Positions 5,990 to 64,000 of a stretch of DNA of 64,000 nt are shown here, piece after piece. A program made the position numbers and the translations under genes. Numbering within the stretch: the first letter of the stretch is position 1; each line of letters begins with the position of its first letter. Source of the DNA: an uncultured Eggerthellaceae bacterium (GTDB lineage: Bacteria; Actinomycetota; Coriobacteriia; Coriobacteriales; Eggerthellaceae); assembly GCA_905234785.1 (NCBI GenBank), contig CAJOIP010000003.1, positions 1 through 64,000 of the forward strand, written 5' to 3'. The notes beneath the pieces were generated by a model, which searched no databases, was not told the origin of the DNA, and saw only the letters and a list, made by a program, of their open reading frames with translations.

Positions 5990-5993
5990 TAAA

Positions 5994-6080: not shown

Positions 6081-6088
6081 CCTTAAAG

Positions 6089-8180: not shown

Positions 8181-8189
8181 GGGTCTTGA

Positions 8190-8195: not shown

Positions 8196-8199
8196 TACG

Positions 8200-8720: not shown

Positions 8721-8807
8721 CGAGAGTTATGCGAACTCATTTGAGGACGTGACACGTGGGCTCCTCTCGCATTACGGTAACGGGGGGTTATTGGTGTTAC
8801 TGCCTTA

Positions 8808-8969: not shown

Positions 8970-9088
8970 TAAATGCACGGGTGGCAATGGTGGGCGCTCG
9001 TGGCGACAATGGTGAGTACCCGGGACAATGGGGGTGAGTACCTGGGATGACAACTGTGGCAAAGCAAGCCGACAGCCTATCTTCACGC

Positions 9089-9094
9089 TATAAT
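9089..9094 (+). promoter_or_regulatory. dnaN -10 element
   Basis: TATAAT lies 35 bp before the dnaN start. No good -35 hexamer is visible at the usual distance. Confidence 0.55.
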
Positions 9095-9129
9095 GGCTTC
9101 ACTTCACGCCAATCAAAGAGGAGCAACGA

Positions 9130-10221
9130 ATGAAGCTCAGCATCAACCAATCCGAACTGCTCAACGCCCTGTCCATCGTGCAAAAGGGCATATCGGCGCG
9201 CTCTACGCTGCCGGTCCTTTCGGGCGTGTTCGTCGAGGCGCGCGGCGACGAAGTGTGCTTCCAAACGACCGACCTCGAGCTTTCCATCCAATACACCTGC
9301 TCGGCGCTCATCGAGGAGGAAGGCGCCACGGTTTTCCCCGGCAAGCTCATCGTCGACATCGTGAAGAACCTGCCCGACGCCGCCGTTCACATCGAAACGA
9401 CCGACGAAAACGCCGTCATTTCGTGCGATTCATCCTCGTTTTCCATCAAATGCCTGGCAGCAATCGACTTCCCGGCTTTCCCGCAAGTCCTTCCCGAACA
9501 GCAGATTTCGGTGCCGTTCGAAGCGTTTTCCACGATGGCGCGCAAGGTCTGCCGCGTCGTTTCCAAAGACGAATCCCGCGCCATTCTGACCGGCGTGCTC
9601 ATCGAGGTCGAAGGCCAGACGCTGAAGATGGTCGCCACCGACTCGTACCGCCTCGCCGTCACCGAAACGCAACTCGCAACCGCGGCCGACGAGTTCAACG
9701 CCGTGCTCGCCGGCGGGTTCGTCGCCGATCTGGCCGGCCTTCCGAAAACCGGCGAGGACATCTCCCTTGCCCTTGCGGAAAACCAGATCATCGTTTCGTA
9801 CGCCGGCACTGTGTTCATCAACCGCCGCATCGAGGGCAAGTACCCCAACTACAAGCAGCTCATCCCGCCGTCGTATGAGACGCGCTGCCTGGTCGACCGC
9901 AACGCGCTGCTCGCCGCGGTCCGCCGTGCGTCGCTGCTCGAGCACAACCGTTCGCAGGTGCGCTTCAGCGTGAACGCCGCCACCCAGACCATCCAGCTGA
10001 CCACGAGCCAAGACGTCGGGTCCACGCAGGAAATCGTGAAAGCCCAGGTGGAAGGCGCCGACGTGGAAATCGGCTTCAACAGCTACTACGTCGTCGAGGG
10101 CCTGTCCGCCATGGAATCCGCCGAGGTGTCGTTCGAGATTCAGGGCCCGCTGAAGCCCGGCATCATGAAGGGCTCTGCCGAGGAAAACTACCTCTATCTC
10201 GTCATGCCCGTCCGCCTGTAG
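9130..10221 (+). CDS. dnaN: DNA polymerase III beta sliding clamp
   Basis: DnaN is the ring-shaped processivity clamp of the replicase. The 363-residue length and the three repeated clamp folds fit; recognisable parts are MKLSINQSELLNALSIVQKG, TLPVLSGVFVEA and the C-terminal LYLVMPVRL that lines the protein-binding groove. ATG 9130 follows GAGGAG with a 6-nt spacer. It is the first rightward gene and is separated from dnaA by the presumed oriC, not directly behind dnaA as in most bacteria. No recF, gyrB or gyrA follows within this window, which is also unusual. Confidence 0.97.
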   Translation: MKLSINQSELLNALSIVQKGISARSTLPVLSGVFVEARGDEVCFQTTDLELSIQYTCSALIEEEGATVFPGKLIVDIVKNLPDAAVHIETTDENAVISCDSSSFSIKCLAAIDFPAFPQVLPEQQISVPFEAFSTMARKVCRVVSKDESRAILTGVLIEVEGQTLKMVATDSYRLAVTETQLATAADEFNAVLAGGFVADLAGLPKTGEDISLALAENQIIVSYAGTVFINRRIEGKYPNYKQLIPPSYETRCLVDRNALLAAVRRASLLEHNRSQVRFSVNAATQTIQLTTSQDVGSTQEIVKAQVEGADVEIGFNSYYVVEGLSAMESAEVSFEIQGPLKPGIMKGSAEENYLYLVMPVRL

Positions 10222-13800: not shown

Positions 13801-15512
13801 GGATGTACCACACGCGCCTTTATGCGGCGGCCAAGGTGGCCACCCAGCGCAAGGACCTCGACCTCATCCAGCTGAACAGCTTCGGTTGCGGGCTCGACGC
13901 CCTGACCACCGATCAGGTGCAGGAGATCCTCGAAGCCGCCGGCAAGGTCTACACCGTGCTGAAGATCGACGAGGTGTCGAACCTCGGCGCCGCGCGCATC
14001 CGCGTGCGCAGCCTGCTCGCCGCCTTGCGCGACCAAGTGAACGAAGAGCTTCCCCAAGTGCGCTTCAACCCCCTTGCGGAAGCGCAGCAAGGTGGGGAAA
14101 ACGCATCGGCGCCGACGGTTGAAGAAGAGCCGAACGTCGTTCCCGTGGCCACGACTTCCGTCGAACCCGCATCTGACGAAACATCCCCCGCAGGAGCTTC
14201 TTCCAAGCGCTCGCCAACCGCGGCAGAGCCGTCGATCGAAGAAATCATCTCCACCGAATTCCCGCGCGTCGAGTTCACCAAGGAAATGCGCGACGCCGGT
14301 TACACCATCCTGGCACCGCAGATGGCCCCGTATCATTTCGAGCTGCTCGTGCCCGTGTTCCACTCGTTCGGCTACAACATCGAGCTGTTGCCCGCGGTCG
14401 ACCACGGCGCGGTCGACGCGGGCCTGAAGTACGTCAACAACGACATCTGCTACCCGTCCATCCTGGTCACGGGCCAAATCATGGAAGCCGTCACCAGCGG
14501 CCGCTACGACACCGACCGTCTGGCCGTGCTTATTACGCAGACGGGCGGCGGCTGCCGCGCCACCAACTACATCGCGCTCATCCGCAAGGCGCTGAAGGCG
14601 GCCGGCCTCGGCCATGTGCCGGTCATCAGCCTGGCGCTGCAAGGCCACCTCGACGAGCACAATTCCGGCTTCGAAATCACGCTGCCCATGCTGAAGCAGG
14701 CGGTCTACGCGCTCAGCTACGGTGACCTGCTCATGATGGCGCTCTACCGCACGCGCCCCTACGAAGCCGAACACGGCGCCGCGCAGAAAATGTTCGACAA
14801 ATGGATGGACATTTGCCGCAAAGAGGTCCACGACGGAACGAATCGGCGTCAGTTCGCGAAGACGGTGAAGGGAATAATCGACGACTTCGACAACCTTCCG
14901 CTCGTAAACGACGGCGAAAAACCGCGCGTCGGCGTGGTGGGCGAGATCCTCGTGAAGTTCCACCCCACGGCCAACAACCAGGTCGTCGACGTCATCGAGC
15001 GCGAAGGCTGCGAAGCGGTCGTCCCCGGCCTCATCGAGTTCTTCCTGTTCGGCATCGTCGGCCGCATCTTCCAGAAAGACCCGCTCGGCCGCTCGACCAA
15101 GGGCGCTATCGGCGCGCGCGGCATCCTGAAGCTGCTCACCACCATGCGCAAGCCCATGCTCGACGCGCTTGAGAAATCGAAGCGCTTCGAAGCCCCGACC
15201 GACATCTTCACGCTGGGCGAATACGCCGAAGAGGTGCTTTCCACCTGCAACAGCATGGGGGAGGGCTGGCTGCTCACCGCCGAGATGATCGAGCTCATCC
15301 GCACTGGCACGCCCAACATTGTGTGCGCGCAGCCGTTTGCGTGCCTGCCGAACCATGTCGTGGGCAAGGCGGTCATCAAGGAGCTGCGCCGCCAGTATCC
15401 CGAAAGCAACATCGTCGCCGTCGACTACGACCCCGGCGCCAGCGAGGTCAACCAGCTCAACCGCATCAAGCTCATGATCTCGGTCGCCAAGGCCAACATG
15501 GAAAGCCAATAA
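10812..15512 (+). CDS. 2-hydroxyacyl-CoA dehydratase activase fusion (two BcrA/BadF ATPase domains, DUF2229, dehydratase-like C-terminus)
   Basis: This 1566-residue protein belongs to the acyl-CoA dehydratase activase-related family. Relatives use ATP hydrolysis at a [4Fe-4S] cluster to drive electrons into radical 2-hydroxyacyl-CoA dehydratases or benzoyl-CoA reductases. Two ASKHA ATPase domains are visible, with GIDVGSTT (33-40) and GIDAGSTT (352-359) phosphate loops and cluster-type cysteines at about C151 ([10 protein letters not shown]) and C521/C525 ([10 protein letters not shown]). A DUF2229 region follows, with C681-x2-C684-x3-C688 and C713 (GNRCEKG). After a Pro/Ser/Glu linker (about 1090-1150) comes an HgdB-like domain with NNDICYPS and [13 protein letters not shown] follows GAGAGGG. 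Residues 400-441 are a repeat-derived insertion in the second ATPase domain. The true substrate is unknown, and no dehydratase subunits lie nearby. Confidence 0.88.
12009..12132 (+). repeat. In-frame insertion: 30-bp triplication plus a family A repeat inside the activase gene
   Basis: Three head-to-tail 30-bp copies (12009-12038, 12039-12068, 12069-12098) encode [10 protein letters not shown] twice and [10 protein letters not shown]. The last runs straight into TGTCATCCCGAGCG ... GAGGGATCTCCGCGAAGCG (12095-12132), read as [13 protein letters not shown]. Both parts keep the frame. They lie between the first strands of the second ATPase domain and [14 protein letters not shown]. Confidence 0.9.
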
Positions 15513-48087: not shown

Positions 48088-48702
48088 GTATCATGGATAA
48101 ACTACAGCTTGTATTGACAACTGCTTTCTCAAGCCATCCATCGAACCTCTCAAGATCCACTGATAGCCACCCTGAAACATACCGTCATAATCGTATCAGA
48201 AATACAAAACATGGCCTTACCACAGTAGTCGCCCTGTACGATTTGTTGCCGTAATGTGCTCGTTACCTTTCTGTTGCTTAAGTTGTGAATTCAAAAAAGC
48301 ACAATATATTGTATTGATGATATGTATAACACAAGATGATGTGTTAAATAGGTACCAATTTGCCATAATTCCTGATGAGAGGGCAAAACCGACAGTTGAT
48401 GTACAAAAACTAGCCCTAGAATCCCAGCTGGGTTAAAAGCCGTTGCGGCGCGTTTGCGGCTTCAAATCGATGCCAGGGTGGCCGATTTGGTACATGGGGT
48501 GAGCATGCAAAGCGCCTTTTTTCCACAGAGCGTGGAAATGCGCAGGTCAGATGCGAAAGTGGGTCATTTGGCCGATTGCCTTGGGTAGGGCGAGCGCATG
48601 AGGGAATCCGGCATAGATCGGGTCCTTTTTAGGATGGTCTATGCCCTGGACGAGAGATGAAATCCCCATGTCATGGCGAATCGTATCGCCAAAGGGGTGT
48701 AC
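48088..48702. other. AT-rich intergenic region and leader of the second giant gene
   Basis: 48100-48430 is unusually AT-rich and has no gene I can support. Within the leader, GGCATAGA (48610-48617) and TCTATGCC (48638-48645) form a hairpin with inner TCCT/AGGA pairing, 57 nt before the start codon. It might be an operator or an mRNA structure affecting translation. Confidence 0.5.
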
Positions 48703-51700
48703 ATGCATCGAATCGAACATCGGACTCAGACGGGCTGGCTGGCACTGTTCACGGTGCTCGTGGCCTTGGCTTTCGTCCTGACGCCGGGTGCTGCGTTTGC
48801 GGCGGCCGCGTCCGATGACGCAGCCGATCCGGCTGTTACCGCCGATGCCGATGCCGGCGCCTCCGCTGCCACCGAGAATGCGGCGGATGTTCCGGTGGCG
48901 GAAGCGACGATCGATGCGGTCGAAAATACAACCCCAGAATATGATACAACGATACAAAACGAATCGGCCGATAGCCCTGGCGATCCCGCTGCCAATTCCG
49001 GCGTGGGAAGCATCTCGGAATCTGATGCCGGAGGGCAATCAGGAGGCGATGCGCAAAAGGCGGGCGATAAGCCCGGTGGGGCCGAGAAAGCCTCGACAAT
49101 CAAAGTAAGGTTCAATGGAAACGGCGGCTCCGGAGCCGCCGTTGAACTTGTATACGATTGTATATCCGATACAATCGTGAATCTGCCGACTGCGGGCGAC
49201 ATCAGCCGCGACGGTTACGTGCTGGTCGGCTGGTCCACATCGGCGGGCTCTTCCCCCGATGCCGCCATGGCGCCGGGCGCTGCGTACACGGTGACGCAAG
49301 ACGCGGCTTCCGACGGCAGCATCACGCTGTACGCGGTGTGGGCAAAGGTGGCCACCGTATCGTACACGAAGTCGTCGATGAACGCCCAGAGCACAACTCT
49401 TCGCGCGGCTGCCGACGGCGACGACGGCCCCTACAGCACGATGCAGCGTTTCCCCAGCAACAAGAACGTGTACTGGACGTTCAGCGAATCCACATCGACG
49501 CTCACGATCAGCTACCTGAACGTCGAGGACCTGGCCATTTACGAAAGCGACTCGGCGCTTCCCTGGAAGACGAAGGTTGGCGCTGCCGACATCCTCCACG
49601 TGGTGGTGGCGCACAACGCTGCAGCGGCTAACCGCTATATCAAACCCTCGAGCATGCAGTCATGGTTCCAAGGATACACAAACCTTCAAAGCTTCGATGG
49701 AGCCGCATTGGATGTATCGGAGGTACAAAATTTTTCCAACCTCTTCGATGGATGTTCGAGTCTGTCCGAAGTGAACGTAGCCGGATGGGATACGTCGAAT
49801 GGCACGAACTATGCGAACCTGTTCAGGAACTGCTCGAGCCTGGAAACGCTCGACCTGAGCGATTGGACGATCAAGGGCAATAATAAAGCCAAGGCGTTCG
49901 AGGGCGCCACGAAATTGACGACGCTGACAGCGCCGAAGACCGTGAACCTGGTCAACACCGGCTTCGCAGAGCTGGCAAGCCGTGTCGACACGGCGGGCAT
50001 ATGGCGGGCGACCATCAATGGCAGTGCGTGGGAGGGCAACACCGCGAGCCTCATAAATCGTATACTAGATACAATGCCGAATACAACGTACACGTTCGAA
50101 TTCGATTCGTATTTCGGTTCCAACACCGACAAGAATGTCCGCTGGAAGTTCACGCCGAGCACCTCGACGCTCGAGATCTCCATTAAGAGTTCGTCGGACT
50201 CGAACACGGTGACCGAATCGGCGAGCGCCCTTCCGTGGTTGGCCTCGGTGGCGACGAACCTGATCAGGCACGTTGTGTTCACGGGCAATAACGGTGTGCT
50301 CGTGGCCCCGGCGACGATGGAATCGTGGTTTGCCGATTACGTCAATCTCGAATCGTTCGACGGCAGGGGAGCCGACGTATCGGGCGTTTCCAGCTTCAAT
50401 TCCATGCTATCGGGCGATAACAGCCTCATGGAAATCAACCTGTCCAATTGGACGATGAACGGAACGACGACGAATACGCTCGCGGGTTGCACGACGCTGT
50501 TCACGATGGTGCTGGGCAACGGGGTCGTGTTGAAGAACACGGGCCTATCAGATTTGAGCACGAGAACCGATCGCAAGGGCCGCTGGGAGGCTTCTGATGC
50601 GAATTCCTGGTTCGGCACATCGGCCAACATGGAGGCGCGTTTCGCCACGACATCGACAAACTACGGCACGCTGACATACTCGTGGGCCGTGGGCAAGCAA
50701 GGCGGCCGCTTCGCCAACGAATACGCATGGTGGACCTACGAGAAGAACCTCGTGACGAACAAGGGCATTCTGACGTTGGGCGTGGACGAAGCGTACACGG
50801 GCGGTTCCGGAACCATTAGCTATTTAGTTACCGAAGATGGCGAGCACGTGCCGTGGATCACTGCGGTCGACGCCGTCAGCATCAACCAAGTCGTCATCGA
50901 AAACGCTCTGGCTCCCGCTACGTTGAACGGCTGGTTCAAGGATTACGTGTATCTTGATACATTCGATGGCACGAACATGAACGTAACCCAGACGGCCGAC
51001 TACCGCAACATGTTCAACGGAGCCACGATGCTGGCAACGGTGAACCTGACCGGTTGGGATATGCGCACGCAGAGCAGCGGAAGCCAGCGCGCCGGCATGT
51101 TCACGGGCTGCGAGGCGCTGGCCACGCTCGTGTTGCCGACGAATGCCGTGCTGGCCGACACGGGGCTCGACGACACGCTGACCAAGCGCACGCCCAAGCA
51201 GGGCTCGTGGCAGATCGACGGCGATCCCGATGCGTGGTTCGGCACGAGCAGCGACTTGGCGGGCCGCTACCCCGTGGGAACGGCCGTCTCGGCCGAAAAC
51301 AACACGACGACGACCTATGCGTGGGTCCAGGGGTTGGCGTCGGGTCGCTTTGCCAATACTAATATATGGTGGAAGCTCGACCCGAACGACTTCCTGGGCG
51401 GCTTGCTGACCATCGGCGTGGACAAGACCGAAGCCGAAGGCGGCGACGTCACCGTCAGGAACATGACGGCGCTCACCACCCCGTGGATCCTTTCGCAGGG
51501 CATTGACGTGCGTTCTCGCGTGCACAGCGTGAAGATCACAGGCGGTGTGAGGCCCATCGACACCTCCACGAACAAATCGCTCGCCAACTTCTTCAAGGAC
51601 TACACGAATCTGAGCGAATTCGACGGCGAGGGCCTCGACGTCAGCGAAGTGACGTCGCTCGCCAGCTTCTTCGAGAACTGCACGGGCCTCAGCTCGGTCG

Positions 51701-54700
51701 CGGGCATGAGCGAGTGGAACACGCATAAAGTCACCTCGCTGGGCAAGATGTTCTATGGCTGTAGCCTGCTGTTCGCGCTGCCCGACATGTCCGGCTGGGA
51801 CGTGAGCGACGTCGCCGACTTCTCTTACATGTGCTACGGTGCGCGCAATATCACGCAGTGCGTGTCGATGGCCAACTGGGATCTGACCAGCGCCGAGACG
51901 TTCCAGGGCATGTTCGAGGGCATGACCGAGCTGCTGACGCTCGATATCTCAGGATGGGTCATGCCGCAGGGCAAGACGCGCGAAGACATGCTGACGAACG
52001 TACCGAAGCTGAACCTGTTCTCGGTCGGCAACGGCGTTATCCTGAGCGATACGGGCCTCACGGGCGAAGCGGGGTCTTCGCGTGCCGATACGGCCGGCAC
52101 CTGGGAGCGCACCGGTGAAGGATCGACGGGTGCGGGTAAGTGGTTCGGAACGACGACGAACCTGATCGCCCGTTATTCGAAGGCCGAACGTTACGCCAAG
52201 GCCGCTGCGGCCACGCCGGTGAAAGAGCCCATGAGCTACAAGTGGGTCGTCGGTTTGTACCGCGGGCGTTTCCTCGACAACGACGATGCCTGGTGGGAAT
52301 TCGACGTGAGTATCAACGAGTTGAAACTGGGCACGTCAAATGCGGGTTCGAGCGGAATCATCGTGAATGTGACGAAGGACACGGTGCCGTGGAAGGGCAT
52401 CCTGCCTACATACTATATAGGTATTATCGATCGCATCGTCGTGGAAAGCGGTGCGAACCTCGTTCCCGTGAACATCGACAACTGGTTCACGGAATACACG
52501 AGCACGACGTACGTCGACGTCTCGGGCCTGAGGCTGTACACGGAAAACTCGAACCACCCGAACCTGGTGGGCTTCTTCAAAGACATGAAGCGCCTGGCCA
52601 CCGTGAAGGGCCTCTCGAATTGGGCAAGCGACATGTCGTCGGTAACCAGTCTTGCGAGCATGTTCGAGAACACGATCATCACGCAGCTCGAAGGCGCCTC
52701 GACATGGCAGACGGGCAACGTCGTGTCGGTTGCGGACATGTTCAAGGGCTGCAAGAGACTCATCGACCTTTCGGGTGTTTCCGGGTGGAACGTGGAGAGG
52801 GTCACCAATTACAGCGGCTTCGTGAACGGCGCGACCAGCCTCCGCACGCTTGATATCCACGAATGGAATATGAAGCCATACGTGAACAGCACTCCCACGA
52901 ACACGAGCGGCATGTTCACCGGCTGCAACGGCCTGCAGAGCATTACGCTTGGCGAGAACGTGTTCCTCGAGGGCACGTCGTTCGCCGACGAAGATTTGCC
53001 CGAGCGTTCGGGCAAGAAGGGTTCGTGGCTGGCGACGACCGGCGATCCCGCATGGTTCGGGTCGACCGACAACCTTGTCGCGCGTTATCCCAAGGCGAAA
53101 GGCGCAAATGGAAACGCGGCCGGCACCATGACCTACACCTGGACGTCGGAACTGCGCGGGCGCTTCGCGAGCAACGACGACGCATGGTGGACGTACCGCG
53201 GCGGCGTGCTGACAGTGGGCGGGTTGGCCAGCGTTTCCGACAAGGCGGTTTTCGAGGACGAAGATTCGGTCCCGTGGCTGTACGCTATTTCCGAAAACGG
53301 CGGCGACGATAGCCGCGAGCTGGTGACAAGCCTGGTGTCCTCGGCGACGACGACCATCCAGCCTGAAAACCCCGCCGGCTGGTTCGCGGGTTACACCAAC
53401 CTTCTGACCGCCAATGTCGACGGCTTCGATTGGTCGAAGCTGGACGGCACGAAATCGGTGGCCCGCATGTTCGCCGGCGACACCTCCCTGACCACGGTGA
53501 CCAACCTGGGTTCGTGGAACTCGCATGGCTTGTCGAACGCGAAAGACTTCACGAGCATGTTCGAAGGCGACTCGTCGCTGATTACGCTTTCGGGCTTGTC
53601 TTCGTGGACGACGCTCGCGGCCACCAATATCTCCGCAATGTTCAAGGACTGCACCAGCCTCGAATCGTTCGTCGATGGGACCAATTGGAACGTGTCGGCT
53701 GTCACGAAGTTCGACAACTTCCTGAACGGGGCCACGTCGCTCAGGACGCTCGACATTGCCGGCTGGAACATGTCGACCGATGCTGGCACGACGCGCACGG
53801 GCATGCTGGCCGGATGCGAGGCGTTGCGCACGGTGACGTTCGGCAAGAACGTGGGCCTGGAAACGGCTGGCTTCACGTCGAGCATGACAGGCCTCACGAT
53901 TAACGACGGCTCGTGGGTGAGCAGCGACGGCTCGTGGTTCGGTTCGACCGACAACATCGTGGCGCGTTACAGGAACGCGCACACCGGCGTGGGCTTCAAG
54001 ATCAACAAGAACGTGACGTACGTATGGACGCCCGGCAAGCTTTCGGGGCGTTTCCCCTCGAATGACAACGCCTGGTGGACTTACAACAAGGACACGAAGG
54101 TGTTGACCATCGGCGCCGATACGAACACATTCGAAACCAAGGTCGTTACCGAGGTGGTCACGGACGATAAGAACGAGCTGCCCTGGACGAAGCTGACGAT
54201 TTCCCGCTACGTCGGAGAGACGGAAGAGGAGGAGGAAATCTGGGAAGACAGCACGGTGCCCGAAGAGGTGCTCACCGTCGTGGTGCAAGACGGCATCGAG
54301 CCGCAAAGGGTTGCCCGCTGGTTCGAGAACTACAGCGCCATGACGACGCTGAACCTGTCCGGCCTGGATGCTTCGCTCATGTCGGGCGCCCATTCCTCGG
54401 CCGACGTCGAGGCGAACTTCGCAGGCGTGCTGAGGGGCGACACGTCGCTTACGACCCTTACGCTGCCGACCGGCATGTACCTCACGGGCTCGGGCCTTTC
54501 CGATGTGGTGAGCACGCCCACCCGCGCCGCCACGGAAGGCCGTTGGCTGTACTCGCAGAACGGCTCGGACATCTGGTTCGATTCGTCCGCCGAGCTTGAG
54601 TACCGCTACGGCACCGCAGACGCCATGACCGCCCGCTATGCCAACACCGTGGTCACCACGGGCGGCGCGACCAACCATCCGGCCTCCACGATCACCTACA

Positions 54701-57700
54701 CGTGGGATACCTCCAAGCTGGGCGGACGCTTCCACAGCAACCAGAACGCCTGGTGGACGTACGTCGCCACAACGGAAGACGAAACGCATGTGGGCACGCT
54801 GACCATTGGCGGTTCCACGAGCGGCGTCAGCGTGCGCGTGACCGAAGACGCCTCGAACGCCACGCCCGACCTGCCTTGGACCGAGGCCGTGAAAGATGCA
54901 GACAACAACGATGTCACGCGCGTGCCCGATTACCAGCACGCCATCACGGTCATCCAGACGCAGGGCAACATCGAGCCCACGAGCATGAACGGCTGGTTCG
55001 CGGGCCTCTTGAGCTTGAACGACTTCAACGGCCGCAACATCACCACGGCGTATGCGACGTCGATGAAGGACCTCTTCCGAGGCGACATCAGCCTTACCAA
55101 TGCGCATATCCGCAACATCGAGTACTGGAACACCGCGCAGGTCACGAACTTCTCGGGCATGTTCGCCGAGATGCCGCTCGTCACCAGGCTCGAGTTGTAC
55201 ACGTTCGACACGACTGCAGGCCTGGACTTCAGCGAGATGTTCTACAACGACGAGAACCTCGAAGTGCTCGTGCTGGCTTCGGGCAACGACGTGTGGGACC
55301 TGAAGACCGCCACTCAAAGCGGCGGCAACACTGTGCGCGACCCGCACAACATATACATGCACGACATGTTCTCGGGCTTGGCCTCGCTGAACCAGATCAC
55401 CGTGTCGGGCAAGATGCTGTTCAGCGTGGGAACCAACGACCCGAACAACCAATCAGGCCTGAGCAACTCGCTCGTGGAGCACACTGCCAAGAAGGGCACG
55501 TGGGCTAACAGCAACGACCCGCATGCGACGGGCATCTGGGAGGGCTCGACCGACAACCTGGCCGCGCTGTACACGCTTGACCTGCCGTCTTCTGGCACCA
55601 CGTACGTCGTGACGTACTATTGGAACCCCGGCAAGCTGCTGGGCCGCTTCAACACGAACACGAACGTGTGGTGGCGCTTCGAAAAGGAGCAGGGCGAACA
55701 GGCCGGCACGCTCTGGATCGGCGTGGACGACACCGACGTCGATGCCACGGTCAAGGTGACCGAGACGGGCGCCACGCTGCCGTGGCGCGAGCTCATCGAA
55801 GATGCGGGCGAGCTTTCGGAGAACCGCATCAGCGTGTTCTACTCGCATGTGAACGACGGCGTGGTCACGCTGACGAACTTCAAGGATTGGTTCAAGGACC
55901 ACACGCTGCTCACGTCGTTCGACGGTTCGGGCATCAACTTCTCGAAGGTCACCTCCTTCGAAAGCGCGTTCGAGAACTGCACGCATCTGACAACCGCCAC
56001 GGGCTTCGGCACAAGCGGCAGCGGTGCGGGCACGAACGGGCATACGCTCACGTCGGTGAAGAACATGTTCTCGGGCGACGTGCTGCTCGAAACGGTCGGC
56101 AACACGTCGAATTGGGACACGTCGAATGTCACGGACTTCTCGGGCGCATTCTACAACTGCGCCGTGCTCGGCTCGCTGAACCTTGCAAGCTGGAACATGG
56201 TGAACCAGGCCGGCGCCGCGTCGGACAACGCCGCGAGCCGCACGAACATGTTCGCGGGCTGCTACGGCCTGCGCGAACTGTACTTGGGCGAAAACGTCGT
56301 GCTTGCCGGCACCGGCTTCACGAGCGAGGGTTTGAAGAAGTCTGACCCGCCGAACAGCGTGCCCTTCAGCGACTACGAAGCGGCGCTCGGCCTGATCGAC
56401 GGCATGTGGGAGCAGGTGAACAGCACGGACGACGTGCTGTGGTTCGATTCGACCACGGGCCTCGCGAACCGCTACGCCTACAACCAGGTGAAGTACACCT
56501 GGTCAGACGGCTCGAAGACCTACACGTCGCGTCCCGAGGGCACGCTGCATTACGTGTGGACGAACCAGCGCGTGGGTGGCCATTTCGCATCGAACACGCA
56601 GGGCAACGCATGGTGGCGCTTCCATAAATCCGACGCCAGCGCCGGCTTGCTCGAAATCGGCGTCGACGGCGACGGCACGCCGCTTTCGGGTCAGCGCGCC
56701 ACGAGCAACGGCGGCAGCGCCGGCACGTTCGAGACCGTTTCGTTCGACCGCACCATCCGGGTGGCGGCCGCGAATTTGCCGTGGCGCCTGAACGATGTGG
56801 CATCCACCTGGATCGACATCACCAACGACGACACCTACTACCGCACCGACAAGTTCACCTACCTGGACACCATAACCAGCGTGACCACGGCAGGCGGCAT
56901 CGCGCCGAAGGTGACGATGGAAGAATGGTTCAAGGACCACTCCATCACGAGCTTCAATGGCAGCGGGCTGGATATGAGCCAGGTCGAAACCATGAAATCG
57001 CTGTTCGAAGGCTGCTCGAGCCTGACCAGGGTTTTGGGCACCGACGCATGGACGACCACCAGCCTGAACGACGTGTCGCGCATGTTCTGCGGCGCCACCG
57101 ACCTTTCGCAGCTGTCGTCGGTCAGCACTTGGAACACCTCCAACGTCACCGATTTCTCGTACATGTTCTATCAGGTCAGGTCCCTGGCAACGGTGAGGGG
57201 CATGGGCGAATGGAACACGGCGAAGGCGACGACGTTCGACTACATGTTCGCCACACGCGAGCTGCCGACGCAGGCGTCTTCGTTGGAAAACGAGGCCTAC
57301 GCGCCCACGGCGTTCCAGTCGCTCGACTTCGACAAGTGGGACATGCAGGCCAACAGCGGCCGCGGCGGCACGCGCGGCAGCGCGCCTTCGGCTGTGGGCT
57401 TCCTGAACGGATGCACCAACCTGAGCACGGTGAAAGTGGGCAACTACTTCAGCACGACGGCCTACGGCCCCGAACGTTCGCTGACGCTGAACTACACGCG
57501 TTCCTCGGAAGACGTCGGCTTGGGCACGAGCGAATGGTACGTGTTCACCCCGAATGCGGACGTGGTCTACATCAGCCTGACGAACCTGATCGACGAGCGC
57601 CCCGTCGATCCGACGAGCCCGGATGATGAGAATTCCGGCGAGGAGTCGGGCGAGAATTCCGGCGAGGAGTCGGGCGAGGATCCCGACGATGATTTCGTCG

Positions 57701-60700
57701 AGTTTTTCGAACTGACGGCCGGCAAGGGCGACACCACGGTGTATGCGTACACGTGGGACAAGAATTCAGAGAGGCCCGAACTCATATCGCTTCAGGGCGT
57801 GGAATGGATTCGTTTCGCCCTGACGGCGTACCCGTGCGGTTTCTCGGCCGCGGTCATGACGCACGGCGCCCTGTACGAGGCGCGCGGCTCCGAAACGACC
57901 GACATGGTGGGCGCAGGTTCCTGGGTGCACGCGGACGGCCGCAAGGTGGCGTGGAACGAGATCCTGGCTTACGCGGCCCAGAATAACTCGGCTGGCACGT
58001 ACACGTTCACGAACGGCGTGATCGCCGGCCGGTTCGCCTCGAACCTGAACGCATCGTGGGAATTCAGCAGCGCGACGGGCGCGCTGGCGCTGCACGGTTC
58101 GGGCATGGTGAGCGAGAAGGGCAACACCGAGGCGGTCGACAACATCGTCAGCGGCGACAACGACCTCGTGCCGTGGGACTTCCTGCGCAATTTCGGCGTG
58201 CTCGGCGGCAACTTCAACAACCAGTCGTACATCACGTCCATAACGGCCGACGGCACGTTCACGGTGAAGTTCCCGGCGCATTGGCTCTCGGCTAATCCGA
58301 ACGTGGAATCGATGGTCCTTTCCGGCATGCAGATAGACGCTGCAGCCACCGACATGACGCACATGATGAGCCTGAACCCGCAGCTCGAGACCATCACGGG
58401 CCTCGACAGCTGGGATGTGAGCCGCATCGAATCGCTGAACAGCCTGTTCATGGGCGATACCGAGCTGGCAACGGTGACGCGGCTGAACAGCTGGGACACC
58501 AGCAACGTCACCGATTTCAGCCACCTGTTCGACGGCGATGCCGCCATCACGTCCGTCGCGAGCGTGGCCAATTGGAACACGGCCAAGGTCACGGACATGT
58601 CGTACACGTTCGCCGGCACGTCCATCGAATCGCTCGACAGCCTGACGCGCTGGGATGTCGAGAAAGTCACCGATTTCTCGCACATGTTCGAATGCGCGCT
58701 CAGCCTGTCCGACGCGTCTGGCATCGGCAGCTGGAAGGTTGGCAAGACGTACGATGTCGACCTCACCGCCATGTTCTCGATGCTGGACGCTTCGGGCGAC
58801 CAGCAGACGACCGCGCTTGCCACATTGGACCTTTCGGGTTGGAAGATGCGCGGTTCGAACACGAAGATCAAGGACATGCTGGCCGGCTGCAACAACCTGG
58901 CCACCATCATCCTGACAGGCGACGACAAGCTGTACGGCTCGGGCGCGTACGACGACACGGGCTTCAACAACGACCTGAACGACCATGACATTTCCGACGG
59001 CCGCTGGATCCGCAACGATTCCAACTGGTATGACAACACGTTCAACCTGGCCAAGATCTACAGCGACACGGTAATGTACCCCGGCAAGTACACGTACCGC
59101 TGGTCGACCGAGCAGCCTGGCGGCCGCTTCCTCACGGGACCTGGTGCGCAGAACGCCTGGTGGCGCTACGACCGCACGCAGAACACGCTGTTCATCGGCA
59201 CGACCGCCAACGTGTACGGCACAAGCTTCCAGGTTGACGACGCGTATGACAACCTTCCGTGGAAGCAGTTGCTGACCAACGACGAAACGCCCATCAAGCA
59301 CATCTCGATCGCCGGCGGCATCCAGCCCACGCATCCGACGTACTGGTTCCAGAACTACGAAGACCTGCTCGACGTGGACGGCGCGGGCCTCAACCTGTCG
59401 GCTGCGGTCGATGGCAAGATCGACGGCATCTTCGACGGCTGCTCCTCCATGACGCGCGTGACGAACGTCGAGTTCTGGAAAGACTACATCGCGGCGAACG
59501 TCACGTCGTTCGCAAACCTGTTCAGGGGCTGCGAGTCGCTGGAGCGCATCGACGGCATCGACCAGTGGACTGACACGAGCAACGTGACGATCATGGCCGG
59601 CATGTTCCAAGACACGAAGAAGCTCGGCGATTATTCCGGCATGACCCCACAGCGCTACCTCGGGTTCCTCACGCTGTTCAGGACCGAGAACGTCGAGGAC
59701 TTCAGCAACATGTTCAACGGTTGCACGGTGCTGACGACGCTCGACCCGCTGACGGATTGGGATGTGAGCAGCGCCACGAACATGCAGGGCATGTTCGCCA
59801 ACTGCACCGCGCTCACCACCACGACGCATCTGAACTGGGATGTTTCGCACGTCAACAACTTCTCGAGCATGTTTGAGGGCGACGATCACCTGGCCACGGT
59901 CGACCTTTCGAACTGGGTCATGCAGAAGACGTCGGGCACGCCCGATGCGCCAGTGTATTCGACGCCGCTCATCAAGGACATGTTCACGGGCTGCGCGAAC
60001 ATCGACACCATCATCCTGGGTGCCCAGTCGGTCCTGTGCGATACCGACCTGGCCACCACGAACACGAGCGGCTTCAGCGATGCGCTGACGGGCCGCACGG
60101 CCGCTGACGGCGGTTGGCGCATCGACGGCGGCGTGTGGTTCGACTGCACGGGCAACTTGGCCGAACGCTACAAGTACGGTCATTCCCAGTCCACGACGAG
60201 CACCTACCTATGGCAGGAAGGCGAGGTCGGCGGCCACTTCCTCACCGACAACAACAGCGTATGGTGGCGCTACTACGCTGACGACAAGCGGCTCGAAATC
60301 GGCATCGACCAAGGCGCTTCGAACTTCGTCGTGACCGATAAGCGCAAATCGTACGTAGCCGATTCGGCGGACCCGAGCGCTTGGAACTTCACCGACAACA
60401 GCCTGCCGTGGTTCCGCTACGGCATCGTCACCACCACGAACACGAAGAAGTTCGTTGTGACCGGCCCCGTAAGCATCGTGAACCCGAACAATTGGTTCGC
60501 GGCTTTCACGGGTCTCGAGGAAGTCGACATGTCGCTCGCCGACGTGTCGCTCGCGTACAGCTTCGCGTACATGTTCTACGGATCGGGCCTGAAGAAGTTC
60601 ACGGGTGCGGCCGATATGAATTTCGAGAGCGCGACATCGTTCCAGTCGATGTTCCAGAACTGCACGGCGCTCACGACGCTCGCGGAGGTTTCGGGCTGGA

Positions 60701-63700
60701 GGTTCCCGCTGGCGACGAATTTCCAGGACATGTTCCGCAATTGCCAGCAGATGACCACCTATGCCGCTGCGATGAACTGGAGCTTTACCGCCGCGACGAA
60801 CGTGTCGGGCATGTTCCGCTACAACATCAGGCTGAAGGACACCGACGGCATCGCGTCGTGGGAGCTCACGACCGTCGAGAACTTCAGCGACATGTTCAGA
60901 GAAGACGCCGCGCTCGAACGGGTCGATATCAGCAAGTGGACCATGACCCAATACATCAAGAACGGCGCGCAGACGAACCGCACGCTTTCGAACATGCTGA
61001 ACTTGGCGCGCGACACCTCGGTGTTGTCGTCGCTGCAGTCCATCACGCTCGGCAGCGCGTCGGTGCTGCCCGGCACGGGTTTCGGCGAACTGACGAACTT
61101 CGCGATCACCCTGGGCCGATGGGGGCTGGCCGACTTGTCATGGTTCGGCAGCACGGCGGTTCTCGTGGGCCATTACCCGGTTACCGGCTGCAGCCGCGGT
61201 GCGCAGACCTTCTACTGGGATGGCGACCATCTGGGCGGCTACTTCGATGACGGCACGACCACCTGGGCCACGACCACCTGGTGGACGTTCGACCGCACGG
61301 GCGAAAACGTGGGCTTGCTCACCATCGGCGCCCAAGACGTGCCCAACAAGGACATCACGGTGACGGCGGCTAATGTGCCCTGGAAGCACATCTCGGGCTT
61401 CAGCATCAATTCCATCACCAAGGTGGCCGGGCAGAACTACCCCGTCATCAAGAACCCGTCAAGCTGGTTCCAGAGCTATCCGAACCTGAAGTCGTTTGAC
61501 GGCACCTACATCCGCGTGACAGGCGCCACCGACCTCTCGAACATGTTCAGCAACAACGCGAACCTCGACACCATAACGGGCCTCCACGACTGGAACACGT
61601 CGTATGCCCAGACGTTCGCCAGCATGTTCCAGAACGACACGAAGATTACTTCGCTCGACCTGACGGGCCTGAACATGCGCGCGGCCACCTCTGTTGCCAA
61701 CATGCTGGCCGGCTGCACGGGCCTTGTGCGCCTGAAACTCGATAACGGCAGCGTGCTGGGCGCCAACCCGTCGAACGGCGCAGCCGATGCGGGAGTGAAC
61801 AACAACCTGCGCGGCCGCAGCCACATCGAAGGCGTCTGGTACCTGAACCAGTGGGTCGACGACGGCCAGGATTGGCTGTGGTTCGGATCGTCGCCCGACC
61901 TGACCGAGCGTTACCCGATAGGCGGCAACACGCACGGTTCCGACATGGAATACATCTGGGACAGCTCGTATCTGGGCGGCCGCTTCGGCAACCCGTATGC
62001 GTGGTGGCGCTACGACCGTCCCACCCGTACGCTGACCATCGGCAGTATCTACGGGCGCCAGGAAATCACCGAGAAGTGGAACGAGCAGCCGTGGGTCCTG
62101 AAGGGCACCGTGAACCCCATGGACGTCGTGAACGTGAAGTCGCGCAACGCCATCGCGCTTCCCTCCGATGCGTCGTACTGGTTCTCGGCGTACAATCCCA
62201 CGACGGGCGAATCGGGCCAGGTCATATTCGGCCCCGGCTCTGATTATTCGGGCAGCACCTCGCTCGACTTCACGAGCCCCTCCGTTTCAAGTTCGAATTC
62301 GTTCGTGTCGGGCAATCGTTGGAACTACTACTACAGCGGCGACGACATCACCGCGACGGCCGCGAACACGCTGAAGGTGTACCCGAAGGGCGGCGGCTCG
62401 TCGTATTCCAAGGGCGCGTCCGTCACGCGTTCGCTAACCTACAACAACGGCACGAACGTCGTTTACAACAACGCCTACAGCCTGGCTGCCGGCACGTACA
62501 CGCTGACCACCATGTGGAAGACGGACAGCAATCTGACTTACTACACCACGTCGGGCCATTCCAACAACTTGCTGTTCGTGGCCAGCGCCCAATACGTTGG
62601 CTCCCTCGATAGCAGGGTCATAGCGAACTCGCGCATTTCGTTCCCGGCAGGCACCCATTCCGATTGGGTGTATGCCACCACGACGTTCACGATTTCCACG
62701 GCTGGTTCGTATTATCTCGAGATCTACACGGGCAGCCTGGTCGACTATGGCACGTACATCTTGCAGTTCAAGGACCTGTACCTGGCCAAGGGCTCGCGTT
62801 ATTCGAACCTGCGCACGTTCGACGGTTCGGGCATTTCCATGTCGAGCGTCACGAACGCGACCGGCTTCTTCCGCGACGACCGCGCCCTGAATTCCATAAC
62901 GGGCACGAACGGCTGGGAGATGACGAACGTCACGACCACCTCGGCCATGTTCCTGAACAACAAGTCGCTGACGAACCTGGCGAACCTCTCGGGTTGGTCC
63001 TTGTCGAAGGACGCCAACTTCAGCAACATGTTCAACGGCTGCACGGCCCTGACGAACAGCAGCCTGTCCTCGCTTACGAATTGGACCACCTCGGCCGCGA
63101 CGAACTTCGCGAACATGTTCTACAACTGCTTGGGCGTGACGTCGAACGAGGCGTTGAACAAGTGGAACACGGCGAAGGTGACCAATTTCAGCCAGATGTT
63201 CTACAACGTGCCCCTGCGCACGCTCGACGTTTCCGGTTGGGATATGCAGGCGACGACGACCAACGCCAACATGGTGAACAGCCAGTACCTGAACAAGGTC
63301 ATCGCCGGCGGCGGTTCGTACCTCACCACCTCGTCGGGCCTGAGCAACAGCCTGACCAACCACAGCGCGAAGAACGGCATGTGGGTGCTGACGAGCAACA
63401 ACACGACGAGCTTCACCGACGCCGTGCTGCAGTCGGCCATATGGTTCGACGACACCTCGTACCTGGCGGCGCGTTACCCGAAGGCCACGTCGTTCACGCA
63501 GAAGCTCACCTACATTTGGGACACCGCGCACGTGGGCGGCCGCTTCAGGAGCTCGCAAGCAGCCTGGTGGTACTACACGAAATCCGATCACAACCTGCAT
63601 TTGGGCACGAACGGCGTCGACAGCCCCGCCGAAGTGACCGAAGATTACCTGTCGCTGCCCTGGCTTAGCGTGTTGAACGAGTCGAGTGGCGGCGTGTATT

Positions 63701-64000
63701 CGATTTCGGCCATCACGGCCATCAAGACGCATGGCAAGCTCATCCTACCCGCCAATGCGCAGCAGTGGTTCTCGTCGTACCGTTGGGGCGGCAACACCAC
63801 ACCGCTGACGTATGGCGAGGGATCGACCGTCGACCAATCGAAGGTCGGCAACTGGACGCAGTACAGGCGCTACCACAACGACTCGTATTACAACCGCTCG
63901 AGGAACGGCGCCTACGTGTCGTTCGGTTCTGCGGGCGGGGAAACGTTCACGGTTCGCACGCGCGGCGCATGGGAAGGTGGCTACATTCCCGTGACGCTCA
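48703..64000 (+). CDS. Giant secreted DUF285/BspA-like repeat protein with recurring WW-LPW modules (partial, at least 5099 aa)
   Basis: The frame is open to the window end. ATG 48703 follows AAAGGGG at 6 nt; in-frame ATG 48673 is an alternative. The signal peptide is MHRIEHRTQ then LALFTVLVALAFVLTPGAAFA. An acidic Ala-rich stretch and one Listeria-Bacteroides repeat (VRFNGNGGSG ... LYAVW, about 127-208) come next. The rest alternates DUF285-type leucine-rich blocks (WDTSNVTDFS ... MFxGCxxLxxLxL), as in BspA-like proteins, with about 16 copies of a module holding GGRF, AWW, LxIG and LPW. Each block closes with a WFGSTxxLxxRY cap. An acidic linker (EESGENSGEESGE) lies at about residues 2971-2995, and an extra domain lies at about 4498-4700. 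The role is inferred as an adhesin; the anchor lies outside the window. Confidence 0.88.
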   Translation, partial: MHRIEHRTQTGWLALFTVLVALAFVLTPGAAFAAAASDDAADPAVTADADAGASAATENAADVPVAEATIDAVENTTPEYDTTIQNESADSPGDPAANSGVGSISESDAGGQSGGDAQKAGDKPGGAEKASTIKVRFNGNGGSGAAVELVYDCISDTIVNLPTAGDISRDGYVLVGWSTSAGSSPDAAMAPGAAYTVTQDAASDGSITLYAVWAKVATVSYTKSSMNAQSTTLRAAADGDDGPYSTMQRFPSNKNVYWTFSESTSTLTISYLNVEDLAIYESDSALPWKTKVGAADILHVVVAHNAAAANRYIKPSSMQSWFQGYTNLQSFDGAALDVSEVQNFSNLFDGCSSLSEVNVAGWDTSNGTNYANLFRNCSSLETLDLSDWTIKGNNKAKAFEGATKLTTLTAPKTVNLVNTGFAELASRVDTAGIWRATINGSAWEGNTASLINRILDTMPNTTYTFEFDSYFGSNTDKNVRWKFTPSTSTLEISIKSSSDSNTVTESASALPWLASVATNLIRHVVFTGNNGVLVAPATMESWFADYVNLESFDGRGADVSGVSSFNSMLSGDNSLMEINLSNWTMNGTTTNTLAGCTTLFTMVLGNGVVLKNTGLSDLSTRTDRKGRWEASDANSWFGTSANMEARFATTSTNYGTLTYSWAVGKQGGRFANEYAWWTYEKNLVTNKGILTLGVDEAYTGGSGTISYLVTEDGEHVPWITAVDAVSINQVVIENALAPATLNGWFKDYVYLDTFDGTNMNVTQTADYRNMFNGATMLATVNLTGWDMRTQSSGSQRAGMFTGCEALATLVLPTNAVLADTGLDDTLTKRTPKQGSWQIDGDPDAWFGTSSDLAGRYPVGTAVSAENNTTTTYAWVQGLASGRFANTNIWWKLDPNDFLGGLLTIGVDKTEAEGGDVTVRNMTALTTPWILSQGIDVRSRVHSVKITGGVRPIDTSTNKSLANFFKDYTNLSEFDGEGLDVSEVTSLASFFENCTGLSSVAGMSEWNTHKVTSLGKMFYGCSLLFALPDMSGWDVSDVADFSYMCYGARNITQCVSMANWDLTSAETFQGMFEGMTELLTLDISGWVMPQGKTREDMLTNVPKLNLFSVGNGVILSDTGLTGEAGSSRADTAGTWERTGEGSTGAGKWFGTTTNLIARYSKAERYAKAAAATPVKEPMSYKWVVGLYRGRFLDNDDAWWEFDVSINELKLGTSNAGSSGIIVNVTKDTVPWKGILPTYYIGIIDRIVVESGANLVPVNIDNWFTEYTSTTYVDVSGLRLYTENSNHPNLVGFFKDMKRLATVKGLSNWASDMSSVTSLASMFENTIITQLEGASTWQTGNVVSVADMFKGCKRLIDLSGVSGWNVERVTNYSGFVNGATSLRTLDIHEWNMKPYVNSTPTNTSGMFTGCNGLQSITLGENVFLEGTSFADEDLPERSGKKGSWLATTGDPAWFGSTDNLVARYPKAKGANGNAAGTMTYTWTSELRGRFASNDDAWWTYRGGVLTVGGLASVSDKAVFEDEDSVPWLYAISENGGDDSRELVTSLVSSATTTIQPENPAGWFAGYTNLLTANVDGFDWSKLDGTKSVARMFAGDTSLTTVTNLGSWNSHGLSNAKDFTSMFEGDSSLITLSGLSSWTTLAATNISAMFKDCTSLESFVDGTNWNVSAVTKFDNFLNGATSLRTLDIAGWNMSTDAGTTRTGMLAGCEALRTVTFGKNVGLETAGFTSSMTGLTINDGSWVSSDGSWFGSTDNIVARYRNAHTGVGFKINKNVTYVWTPGKLSGRFPSNDNAWWTYNKDTKVLTIGADTNTFETKVVTEVVTDDKNELPWTKLTISRYVGETEEEEEIWEDSTVPEEVLTVVVQDGIEPQRVARWFENYSAMTTLNLSGLDASLMSGAHSSADVEANFAGVLRGDTSLTTLTLPTGMYLTGSGLSDVVSTPTRAATEGRWLYSQNGSDIWFDSSAELEYRYGTADAMTARYANTVVTTGGATNHPASTITYTWDTSKLGGRFHSNQNAWWTYVATTEDETHVGTLTIGGSTSGVSVRVTEDASNATPDLPWTEAVKDADNNDVTRVPDYQHAITVIQTQGNIEPTSMNGWFAGLLSLNDFNGRNITTAYATSMKDLFRGDISLTNAHIRNIEYWNTAQVTNFSGMFAEMPLVTRLELYTFDTTAGLDFSEMFYNDENLEVLVLASGNDVWDLKTATQSGGNTVRDPHNIYMHDMFSGLASLNQITVSGKMLFSVGTNDPNNQSGLSNSLVEHTAKKGTWANSNDPHATGIWEGSTDNLAALYTLDLPSSGTTYVVTYYWNPGKLLGRFNTNTNVWWRFEKEQGEQAGTLWIGVDDTDVDATVKVTETGATLPWRELIEDAGELSENRISVFYSHVNDGVVTLTNFKDWFKDHTLLTSFDGSGINFSKVTSFESAFENCTHLTTATGFGTSGSGAGTNGHTLTSVKNMFSGDVLLETVGNTSNWDTSNVTDFSGAFYNCAVLGSLNLASWNMVNQAGAASDNAASRTNMFAGCYGLRELYLGENVVLAGTGFTSEGLKKSDPPNSVPFSDYEAALGLIDGMWEQVNSTDDVLWFDSTTGLANRYAYNQVKYTWSDGSKTYTSRPEGTLHYVWTNQRVGGHFASNTQGNAWWRFHKSDASAGLLEIGVDGDGTPLSGQRATSNGGSAGTFETVSFDRTIRVAAANLPWRLNDVASTWIDITNDDTYYRTDKFTYLDTITSVTTAGGIAPKVTMEEWFKDHSITSFNGSGLDMSQVETMKSLFEGCSSLTRVLGTDAWTTTSLNDVSRMFCGATDLSQLSSVSTWNTSNVTDFSYMFYQVRSLATVRGMGEWNTAKATTFDYMFATRELPTQASSLENEAYAPTAFQSLDFDKWDMQANSGRGGTRGSAPSAVGFLNGCTNLSTVKVGNYFSTTAYGPERSLTLNYTRSSEDVGLGTSEWYVFTPNADVVYISLTNLIDERPVDPTSPDDENSGEESGENSGEESGEDPDDDFVEFFELTAGKGDTTVYAYTWDKNSERPELISLQGVEWIRFALTAYPCGFSAAVMTHGALYEARGSETTDMVGAGSWVHADGRKVAWNEILAYAAQNNSAGTYTFTNGVIAGRFASNLNASWEFSSATGALALHGSGMVSEKGNTEAVDNIVSGDNDLVPWDFLRNFGVLGGNFNNQSYITSITADGTFTVKFPAHWLSANPNVESMVLSGMQIDAAATDMTHMMSLNPQLETITGLDSWDVSRIESLNSLFMGDTELATVTRLNSWDTSNVTDFSHLFDGDAAITSVASVANWNTAKVTDMSYTFAGTSIESLDSLTRWDVEKVTDFSHMFECALSLSDASGIGSWKVGKTYDVDLTAMFSMLDASGDQQTTALATLDLSGWKMRGSNTKIKDMLAGCNNLATIILTGDDKLYGSGAYDDTGFNNDLNDHDISDGRWIRNDSNWYDNTFNLAKIYSDTVMYPGKYTYRWSTEQPGGRFLTGPGAQNAWWRYDRTQNTLFIGTTANVYGTSFQVDDAYDNLPWKQLLTNDETPIKHISIAGGIQPTHPTYWFQNYEDLLDVDGAGLNLSAAVDGKIDGIFDGCSSMTRVTNVEFWKDYIAANVTSFANLFRGCESLERIDGIDQWTDTSNVTIMAGMFQDTKKLGDYSGMTPQRYLGFLTLFRTENVEDFSNMFNGCTVLTTLDPLTDWDVSSATNMQGMFANCTALTTTTHLNWDVSHVNNFSSMFEGDDHLATVDLSNWVMQKTSGTPDAPVYSTPLIKDMFTGCANIDTIILGAQSVLCDTDLATTNTSGFSDALTGRTAADGGWRIDGGVWFDCTGNLAERYKYGHSQSTTSTYLWQEGEVGGHFLTDNNSVWWRYYADDKRLEIGIDQGASNFVVTDKRKSYVADSADPSAWNFTDNSLPWFRYGIVTTTNTKKFVVTGPVSIVNPNNWFAAFTGLEEVDMSLADVSLAYSFAYMFYGSGLKKFTGAADMNFESATSFQSMFQNCTALTTLAEVSGWRFPLATNFQDMFRNCQQMTTYAAAMNWSFTAATNVSGMFRYNIRLKDTDGIASWELTTVENFSDMFREDAALERVDISKWTMTQYIKNGAQTNRTLSNMLNLARDTSVLSSLQSITLGSASVLPGTGFGELTNFAITLGRWGLADLSWFGSTAVLVGHYPVTGCSRGAQTFYWDGDHLGGYFDDGTTTWATTTWWTFDRTGENVGLLTIGAQDVPNKDITVTAANVPWKHISGFSINSITKVAGQNYPVIKNPSSWFQSYPNLKSFDGTYIRVTGATDLSNMFSNNANLDTITGLHDWNTSYAQTFASMFQNDTKITSLDLTGLNMRAATSVANMLAGCTGLVRLKLDNGSVLGANPSNGAADAGVNNNLRGRSHIEGVWYLNQWVDDGQDWLWFGSSPDLTERYPIGGNTHGSDMEYIWDSSYLGGRFGNPYAWWRYDRPTRTLTIGSIYGRQEITEKWNEQPWVLKGTVNPMDVVNVKSRNAIALPSDASYWFSAYNPTTGESGQVIFGPGSDYSGSTSLDFTSPSVSSSNSFVSGNRWNYYYSGDDITATAANTLKVYPKGGGSSYSKGASVTRSLTYNNGTNVVYNNAYSLAAGTYTLTTMWKTDSNLTYYTTSGHSNNLLFVASAQYVGSLDSRVIANSRISFPAGTHSDWVYATTTFTISTAGSYYLEIYTGSLVDYGTYILQFKDLYLAKGSRYSNLRTFDGSGISMSSVTNATGFFRDDRALNSITGTNGWEMTNVTTTSAMFLNNKSLTNLANLSGWSLSKDANFSNMFNGCTALTNSSLSSLTNWTTSAATNFANMFYNCLGVTSNEALNKWNTAKVTNFSQMFYNVPLRTLDVSGWDMQATTTNANMVNSQYLNKVIAGGGSYLTTSSGLSNSLTNHSAKNGMWVLTSNNTTSFTDAVLQSAIWFDDTSYLAARYPKATSFTQKLTYIWDTAHVGGRFRSSQAAWWYYTKSDHNLHLGTNGVDSPAEVTEDYLSLPWLSVLNESSGGVYSISAITAIKTHGKLILPANAQQWFSSYRWGGNTTPLTYGEGSTVDQSKVGNWTQYRRYHNDSYYNRSRNGAYVSFGSAGGETFTVRTRGAWEGGYIPVTL
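49155..49177. promoter_or_regulatory. Inverted repeat inside the start of the second giant gene
   Basis: CGATTGTAT (49155-49163) and ATACAATCG (49169-49177) form a perfect 9-bp inverted repeat with a 5-nt centre. It is the clearest of several GATACAA words (48943, 48951, 49168, 50068) in the first 1.4 kb of the gene. Confidence 0.4.
49432..63670 (+). repeat. Array of about 16 WW-LPW modules alternating with DUF285 blocks
   Basis: Module starts are near 49432, 50090, 50671, 51308, 52232, 53128, 54015, 54690, 55610, 56549, 58000, 59090, 60205, 61204, 61947 and 63508. The pattern is aromatic-x-W, 5-9 residues, G-(G/R)-(R/H)-F, 4-7 residues, (A/V)-W-W-x-(Y/F), then L-x-(I/L)-G and finally (L/V)-P-W. 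The first two copies and the eleventh lack the WW pair. Spacing is about 200-520 residues. Confidence 0.85.
62194..62803 (+). other. Extra domain inserted between module and leucine-rich block
   Basis: Residues about 4498-4700 separate WFSAY from NLRTFDGSG, which are adjacent in other units. The insert is rich in Ser, Thr, Tyr and alternating strands (AGTYTLTTMWKTDSN, AGSYYLEIYTGSL). That is the look of a beta-sandwich carbohydrate-binding or galactose-binding-like fold. The fold is inferred from pattern only. Confidence 0.55.

Follow-up and report, generated by a model that had tools for sequence, protein, structure and literature searches.

The window analysed here, the whole stretch of 64,000 nucleotides (C3:1-64000), ends within a very long open reading frame that starts at position 48673. 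When adjoining stretches of the same contig are joined, which is the source of all coordinates beyond 64000, the frame spans C3:48673-111948 and encodes 21,091 amino acids without an internal stop codon. A preliminary description of this DNA had proposed a surface protein of more than 5000 residues, a size that the full frame bears out. The N terminus of the predicted protein carries a putative hydrophobic leader of the AxA type (translation read by eye), and a single B-repeat of the Flg_new family lies between this leader and the first repeated unit (Table 1). The next gene after the stop is metG.

Layout of the giant protein

Residues from about 250 to 9,200 hold approximately 27 repeated units, of which 16 begin in the window and 11 more downstream. 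Each of the 16 opens with a segment bearing WW and LPW motifs (hereafter WW-LPW), which is followed by WFxxYxNL, by DUF285 repeats and by a closing W(F/Y)GST..L..RY..TYxW element. The WW-LPW segments start at frame residues 266, 489, 685, 898, 1206, 1504, 1800 and 2026 (units 1-8) and 2332, 2646, 3127, 3495, 3863, 4202, 4443 and 4964 (units 9-16). Successive starts are 196-538 residues apart, in good agreement with the regular building block of 200-520 residues described earlier.

The count of about 16 copies likewise holds. When each segment was left out in turn and scored with a profile built from the remaining 15, all 16 yielded 29-80 bits. The best of 200 shuffles per segment reached 5-13 bits, and the repetition is therefore far beyond chance. 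The length first given for the segment, about 60 residues, was too short, as the core from GGRF to just before WF is variable and extends over about 70-117 residues. WW is replaced by VYW in unit 1, VRW in unit 2 and ASW in unit 11, and the WF motif is present in nearly all copies, the exceptions being FF (unit 4) and WL (unit 11).

Some units carry additional segments. LRR1 of unit 15 is interrupted by a beta-rich insertion without a Pfam match (Table 1), and LRR1 of unit 16 by a second one that starts near 63790 and continues past the end of the window; each comprises roughly 190-200 residues. Further beta-rich insertions lie downstream at residues of about 7318-7478 and 8480-8610, and only the former exhibits weak similarity to CBM_4_9 (E 0.006) and BetaGal_ABD2. 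These insertions look like carbohydrate-binding jelly rolls. At the junction of units 10 and 11 (about 57490-57940, residues 2941-3090), an acidic stretch rich in Glu and Asp (ENSGEESGENSGEESGED) and an odd, beta-looking segment take the place of the closing element.

After unit 27, approximately 12,000 residues with many Flg_new/Flg_new_2 (InlB-type) B-repeats extend as far as the stop. One 4,000-residue piece of this region gave Flg_new matches above the cut-off (PF09479, PF18998) in 10 stretches, with E 1e-61 and 205 bits. The C terminus ends in ...FAKWGKA* after a B-repeat and lacks a sortase signal (LPXTG-type motif plus membrane stretch), and none was found in the three forward frames between the giant's stop and metG. 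The C termini of two relatives are LPXTG-like (LPRTGD in genome G303 and TPRTGD in G041), and in both a hydrophobic stretch and a basic tail come after the motif.

Directly upstream of the giant lies a second very long frame (25666-48033, + strand, 7,455 aa), which contains many Flg_new/InlB-type B-repeats, has no DUF285 match and terminates in KTGD, a membrane stretch and a basic tail. Elsewhere in the window, dnaA occupies 6089-7570 (- strand), and the replication origin may therefore lie close to the beginning of the contig. A 1,566-aa protein with BadF/BcrA-type ATPase and DUF2229 domains (CoA-enzyme activase) is encoded at 10812-15512 (+ strand).

Table 1. Features of the giant frame located in the window
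Feature	Position	Strand	Basis or remark
N-terminal part of giant surface protein	48673..63999	+	5,109 of 21,091 aa in window
Signal-peptide-like N terminus (HRIEHRTQTGWLALFTVLVALAFVLTPGAAFAAA)	48703..48807	+	read from translation
Single Flg_new (PF09479) repeat near N terminus, residues 144-221	49102..49335	+	Pfam match
Putative N-cap 1 (variant VYW..ALPW)	49435..49662	+	profile; LRR1 'WFQGYTNL' starts 49663
Putative N-cap 2	50104..50325	+	profile, leave-one-out
Putative N-cap 3	50692..50931	+	profile, leave-one-out
Units 3+4 in tandem	50680..52257	+	second AlphaFold2 query
Putative N-cap 4	51331..51588	+	profile, leave-one-out
Composite unit 4 (N-cap, LRRs, C-cap)	51319..52257	+	AlphaFold2 query
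Example of putative C-cap, unit 4 (GKWFGTTTNLIARY...MSYKWVVGL)	52135..52257	+	profile comparison, AlphaFold2
Putative N-cap 5	52255..52482	+	profile, leave-one-out
Putative N-cap 6	53149..53379	+	profile, leave-one-out
Putative N-cap 7	54037..54318	+	profile, leave-one-out
Putative N-cap 8	54715..54993	+	profile, leave-one-out
Putative N-cap 9	55633..55887	+	profile, leave-one-out
Putative N-cap 10 (with insertion)	56575..56925	+	profile, leave-one-out
Putative N-cap 11 (divergent, ASWEF..LVPW)	58018..58281	+	profile, leave-one-out 29 bits
Putative N-cap 12	59122..59343	+	profile, leave-one-out
Putative N-cap 13	60226..60492	+	profile, leave-one-out
Putative N-cap 14	61243..61464	+	profile, leave-one-out
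Putative N-cap 15	61966..62178	+	profile, leave-one-out
Beta-rich insertion of ~190 residues within LRR1 of unit 15	62215..62793	+	carbohydrate-binding-like by eye
Putative N-cap 16	63529..63765	+	profile, leave-one-out

Relationship of the WW-LPW segment to BspA-type LRR proteins

The repeats between the opening and closing elements belong to known families. Matches to PF03382 (DUF285; 235 and 298 bits, cut-off 25) and TIGR02167 (76 and 121 bits, cut-off 30) lie above the respective thresholds, and LRR_5 (PF13306) stays below its gathering cut-off (25.3 vs 27.7 bits). The WW-LPW segment had been reported as not recognizable as a named domain, and profile searches likewise assigned it to no Pfam or NCBIfam family: hmmscan of each module returned scattered chance matches, none of which was common to two members. 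A profile of 26 modules found nothing meaningful among PDB sequences (best E 0.04, the designed LRR protein OR464), phmmer with a single unit gave no match, and a scan of IMG/VR with a 900-aa stretch revealed no relative. A direct HMM search of known proteins with the closing element was weak (best E 0.004), and its relationship became clear only in profile-profile comparison. Because direct searches yielded neither a named family nor a solved structure, the homology described below rests on profile-profile comparison and on intermediates.

Searches of plasmids with tblastn detected BspA-family surface proteins of Enterococcus, Lactococcus, Bombilactobacillus, Ruminococcus and others, and these Bacillota proteins share the unit layout of the giant around one DUF285 block. 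In proteins of Enterococcus, Lactococcus, Bombilactobacillus and Lactiplantibacillus that are annotated as BspA-family or other surface proteins, the counterpart of WW-LPW precedes the DUF285 block. When these N-terminal elements and those of the giant, both cut before LRR1, were compared by HHalign, the result was 95.8% with E 7.6e-9; the closing elements (ending in TYxW) gave 95.1% with E 3.1e-8. Crossed controls pairing N- with C-terminal elements yielded 0.3% and 0.1%. The Bacillota elements used here were chosen by eye from the tblastn matches and thus form a non-random set, and each HHalign E-value refers to a single comparison. By hmmscan, they too are without a Pfam or NCBIfam name.

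The same element is connected to the LRR_5 branch. With either cap profile, an R. albus LRR_5 protein outscores every one of 1,000 shuffles, and phmmer with its cap retrieves the solved LRR protein 4h09 (E 2.7e-10), which carries the LRR_5 version of the N-cap (LTDDGVLTISGTGAM..IPWYKDRDRISEVRV). The cap is therefore common to the LRR_5 and DUF285 branches. It was not recognizable by eye in DUF285 proteins of C. jejuni and L. reuteri or in the long E. gilvus protein WP_114525818, and so is not universal.

The preliminary description had also interpreted WFxxYxNLxxFDG as a joint between WW-LPW and the DUF285 block. The motif itself is real, but the N-cap profile, in its second half from WF onward, repeatedly matches internal DUF285 repeats of several known proteins. 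WFxxYxNLxxFDGxGLDvS thus corresponds to the repeat pattern MFxxCxxLxxLDLSxWDTS; the 'joint' appears to be LRR 1 of the domain, and the idea of a linker was dropped.

These findings suggest that WW-LPW caps the N-terminal end of a BspA-type (PARCEL/DUF285) LRR domain, and that the giant is an adhesin-like protein composed of such capped domains in tandem followed by B-repeats, a reading to which we assign a probability of about 0.83. The sequence profiles and the predicted structure described below show each unit of 200-540 residues as one complete capped LRR domain, with the WFGSTxxLxxRY element, noted earlier as a closing cap, as its C-cap.

Alternatively, WW-LPW might be an independent beta domain, a spacer or a lectin-like module with its own ligand that alternates with DUF285, much as had been proposed from the first reading of the DNA. 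Its size, its conserved tryptophans and the lack of a family name are compatible with this, as is the presence elsewhere in the giant of insertions resembling carbohydrate-binding domains, one with the CBM_4_9 match noted above. However, the same element caps BspA proteins with a single LRR domain as well as the LRR_5 protein of solved structure, it directly precedes the LRRs in the Bacillota proteins examined that carry it, and the unit is predicted as a single rigid body. A free-standing folding or ligand-binding unit is consequently improbable, given both this homology to the pre-DUF285 segment of BspA proteins and its folding with the LRR. Under the cap assignment, some caps may nevertheless have acquired a binding role, since those of the giant are longer and more variable than the Bacillota ones.

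The assignment gives an N-cap role to an element of DUF285- and LRR_5-type BspA domains that is already widespread in bacteria, yet unnamed in family databases. Now that the element has a structural role, profile models of the N-cap and C-cap would help to delimit surface proteins currently described by bare DUF285 matches.

Predicted structure and comparison with known proteins

Structure prediction of a single composite unit, as suggested in the preliminary description, gave one confident body. For unit 4 (313 aa, 58-row alignment), the AlphaFold2 model has a mean pLDDT of 92.4 and a pTM of 0.90, with strands at residues 7-10, 16-21, 29-34 and 45-47, followed by the LRR, a strand at 260-265, two helices and a final strand at 305-311. 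The model of units 3 and 4 together (526 aa; pLDDT 86.8, pTM 0.83) places the C-cap strand 210-217 adjacent to strand 220-223 of the next N-cap.

An LRR solenoid fold is supported by VIA-align matches to BspA-type LRR structures (Z 14.2-10.6), values that in repeat folds indicate LRR architecture and not function. The best four were 6mlx (Z 14.2, rmsd 3.3, 194 residues), 4h09 (Z 12.9, rmsd 3.2, 189 residues), 4fd0 (Z 11.8, rmsd 3.7, 212 residues) and 4fdw (Z 11.4, rmsd 4.8, 224 residues), all bacterial BspA-type LRR proteins, and unrelated LRRs rank below, near Z 10. In its alignment to 4h09, the single-unit model is set in a different repeat register, so that no cap-to-cap superposition is claimed from this match; the two-unit model places residue 4 onto chain residue 0 of 4h09, at high rmsd.

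On the basis of model confidence, strand order and homology, the N-cap would consist of two or three beta strands and seal the LRR solenoid at its hydrophobic end, with the conserved WW and LPW tryptophans buried on the LRR end. LRR number 1, 'WFxxYxNLxxFDGxGLDvS', would follow directly. At the other end, the putative C-cap 'GxW...WFGSTxxLxxRY...TYxW' would pass by its final strand into the next N-cap almost without a linker.

This plan resembles that of BspA-family DUF285/PARCEL proteins (PF03382, TIGR02167), which are secreted surface proteins. Examples from Enterococcus wangshanyuanii (WP_088271896) and Lactococcus garvieae (WP_197911523) comprise an N-cap (W.fD..tgtLTI.sG...sPW....I..I.f.g.v.ap), PARCEL LRRs and a C-cap (GxW...s..dL...Y...TYvW). 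Whereas family members are usually about 500-1,300 aa long with a single capped domain, the giant has 27 in 21,091 aa, longer caps and beta-rich insertions inside some units. A tandem arrangement is found in the Enterococcus sp. CR-Ec1 plasmid protein WP_101699627, which has at least three complete units and a further, truncated one, with C-cap to N-cap junctions as in the giant. Unlike the giant, it is far shorter and its caps are nearly identical, which points to recent duplication. The Eubacterium ventriosum protein EUBVEN_01088 (PDB 4h09, LRR_5/BspA type), a top structural match, shares a version of the N-terminal cap but has a single domain with LRR_5 instead of DUF285 repeats.

Listeria InlB follows a plan of a capped LRR head and then Flg_new-family B-repeats. 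The giant is similar in this overall layout, a likeness from which no internalin membership is claimed, but InlB has another LRR class, other caps, one head and a different anchor. InlA and InlB were only weak structural matches (Foldseek E 0.02-0.2), without a sequence match.

The most probable role of the giant is that of an adhesin bearing numerous LRR heads. Its N-terminal LRR units, arranged head to tail, would present variable faces to ligands from the host, from plant fibre or from microbes, and the B-repeats would serve as the stalk of a many-headed fibrillar adhesin. Fibrillar adhesins have an architecture of heads, stalk and anchor (PMC9210967), a description that the putative heads and stalk, together with the anchor seen in relatives, would fit. 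PARCEL proteins have been described as surface-diversifying repeat proteins with horizontal spread (PMC2996958).

Distribution and conservation of unit order

Among 397 genomes of the order, the module profile detected eight (E<=1e-12), representing several families and genera. Carriers include Parafannyhessea umbonata KHGC19, a rumen Denitrobacterium, an uncultured Olsenella (RUG161), an Eggerthellaceae MAG from roe deer jejunum and a Coriobacteriia MAG. Seven of the eight have array frames of 6,927-21,095 aa; the only match in G105 lies in a 490-aa frame, and additional matches in G101 fall in a 1,022-aa frame. The giants thus constitute a rare class of Coriobacteriia surface proteins, several of them from ruminant gut samples.

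For most of units 1-14, the best match in another genome is the unit of the same number (13/14 in G303 and in G106, apparently P. umbonata KHGC19, 12-13/14 in G041 and 12/14 in G004), and five-genome clades were formed at 8/14 unit positions. Judged by these matches, colinearity of units 1-14 is largely maintained across families, and the same-position matches and position-wise clades indicate that most of the array is older than the divergence of these genes. Neither metG, tatD and dnaA nor the genes just upstream were found in the stretches retrieved around the giants of other genomes; gene neighbourhood is not conserved there, and no synteny argument is made.

A recent tandem expansion, in which simple repeat growth lengthened the protein and the order of units was not selected, is an unlikely account of the array. 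Several of units 15-22 do match one another better than units of other genomes, with own-genome best scores of up to 253 bits, and look like a local expansion in this protein; Bacillota relatives, moreover, often have one unit. The same-numbered pairing and the clades of units 1-14 nevertheless argue against such growth for most of the array. That several genes were fused into the giant frame by an assembly error, as its extreme length in an 83-contig assembly might imply, is hardly credible given its 21,091 uninterrupted codons and comparable frames of 11,000-15,000 aa elsewhere, including the one-contig genome G303 (15,227 aa) and the isolate P. umbonata KHGC19.

What is new relative to known BspA-type proteins is the scale, with approximately 27 capped domains and 21,091 residues in one protein, and the conserved unit order. 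Tentatively, and with more doubt than confidence, we propose that about 20 ancestral capped LRR units form an ordered receptor array, each keeping its position across Coriobacteriia families for a different ligand, such that one gene would specify a fixed multi-ligand panel on a B-repeat stalk. Since unit order is kept across families, whether the array serves one ligand or many is testable unit by unit in cultured P. umbonata.

Two further observations concern the relatives. P. umbonata KHGC19 encodes two giants on its contig 11 (13,173 and 11,804 aa), the second of which is divergent and non-colinear. In G031, a 1,200-aa protein contains recurring N-cap-like PW segments, each accompanied by no more than one or two LRRs, and possibly represents a minimal form of the composite unit.
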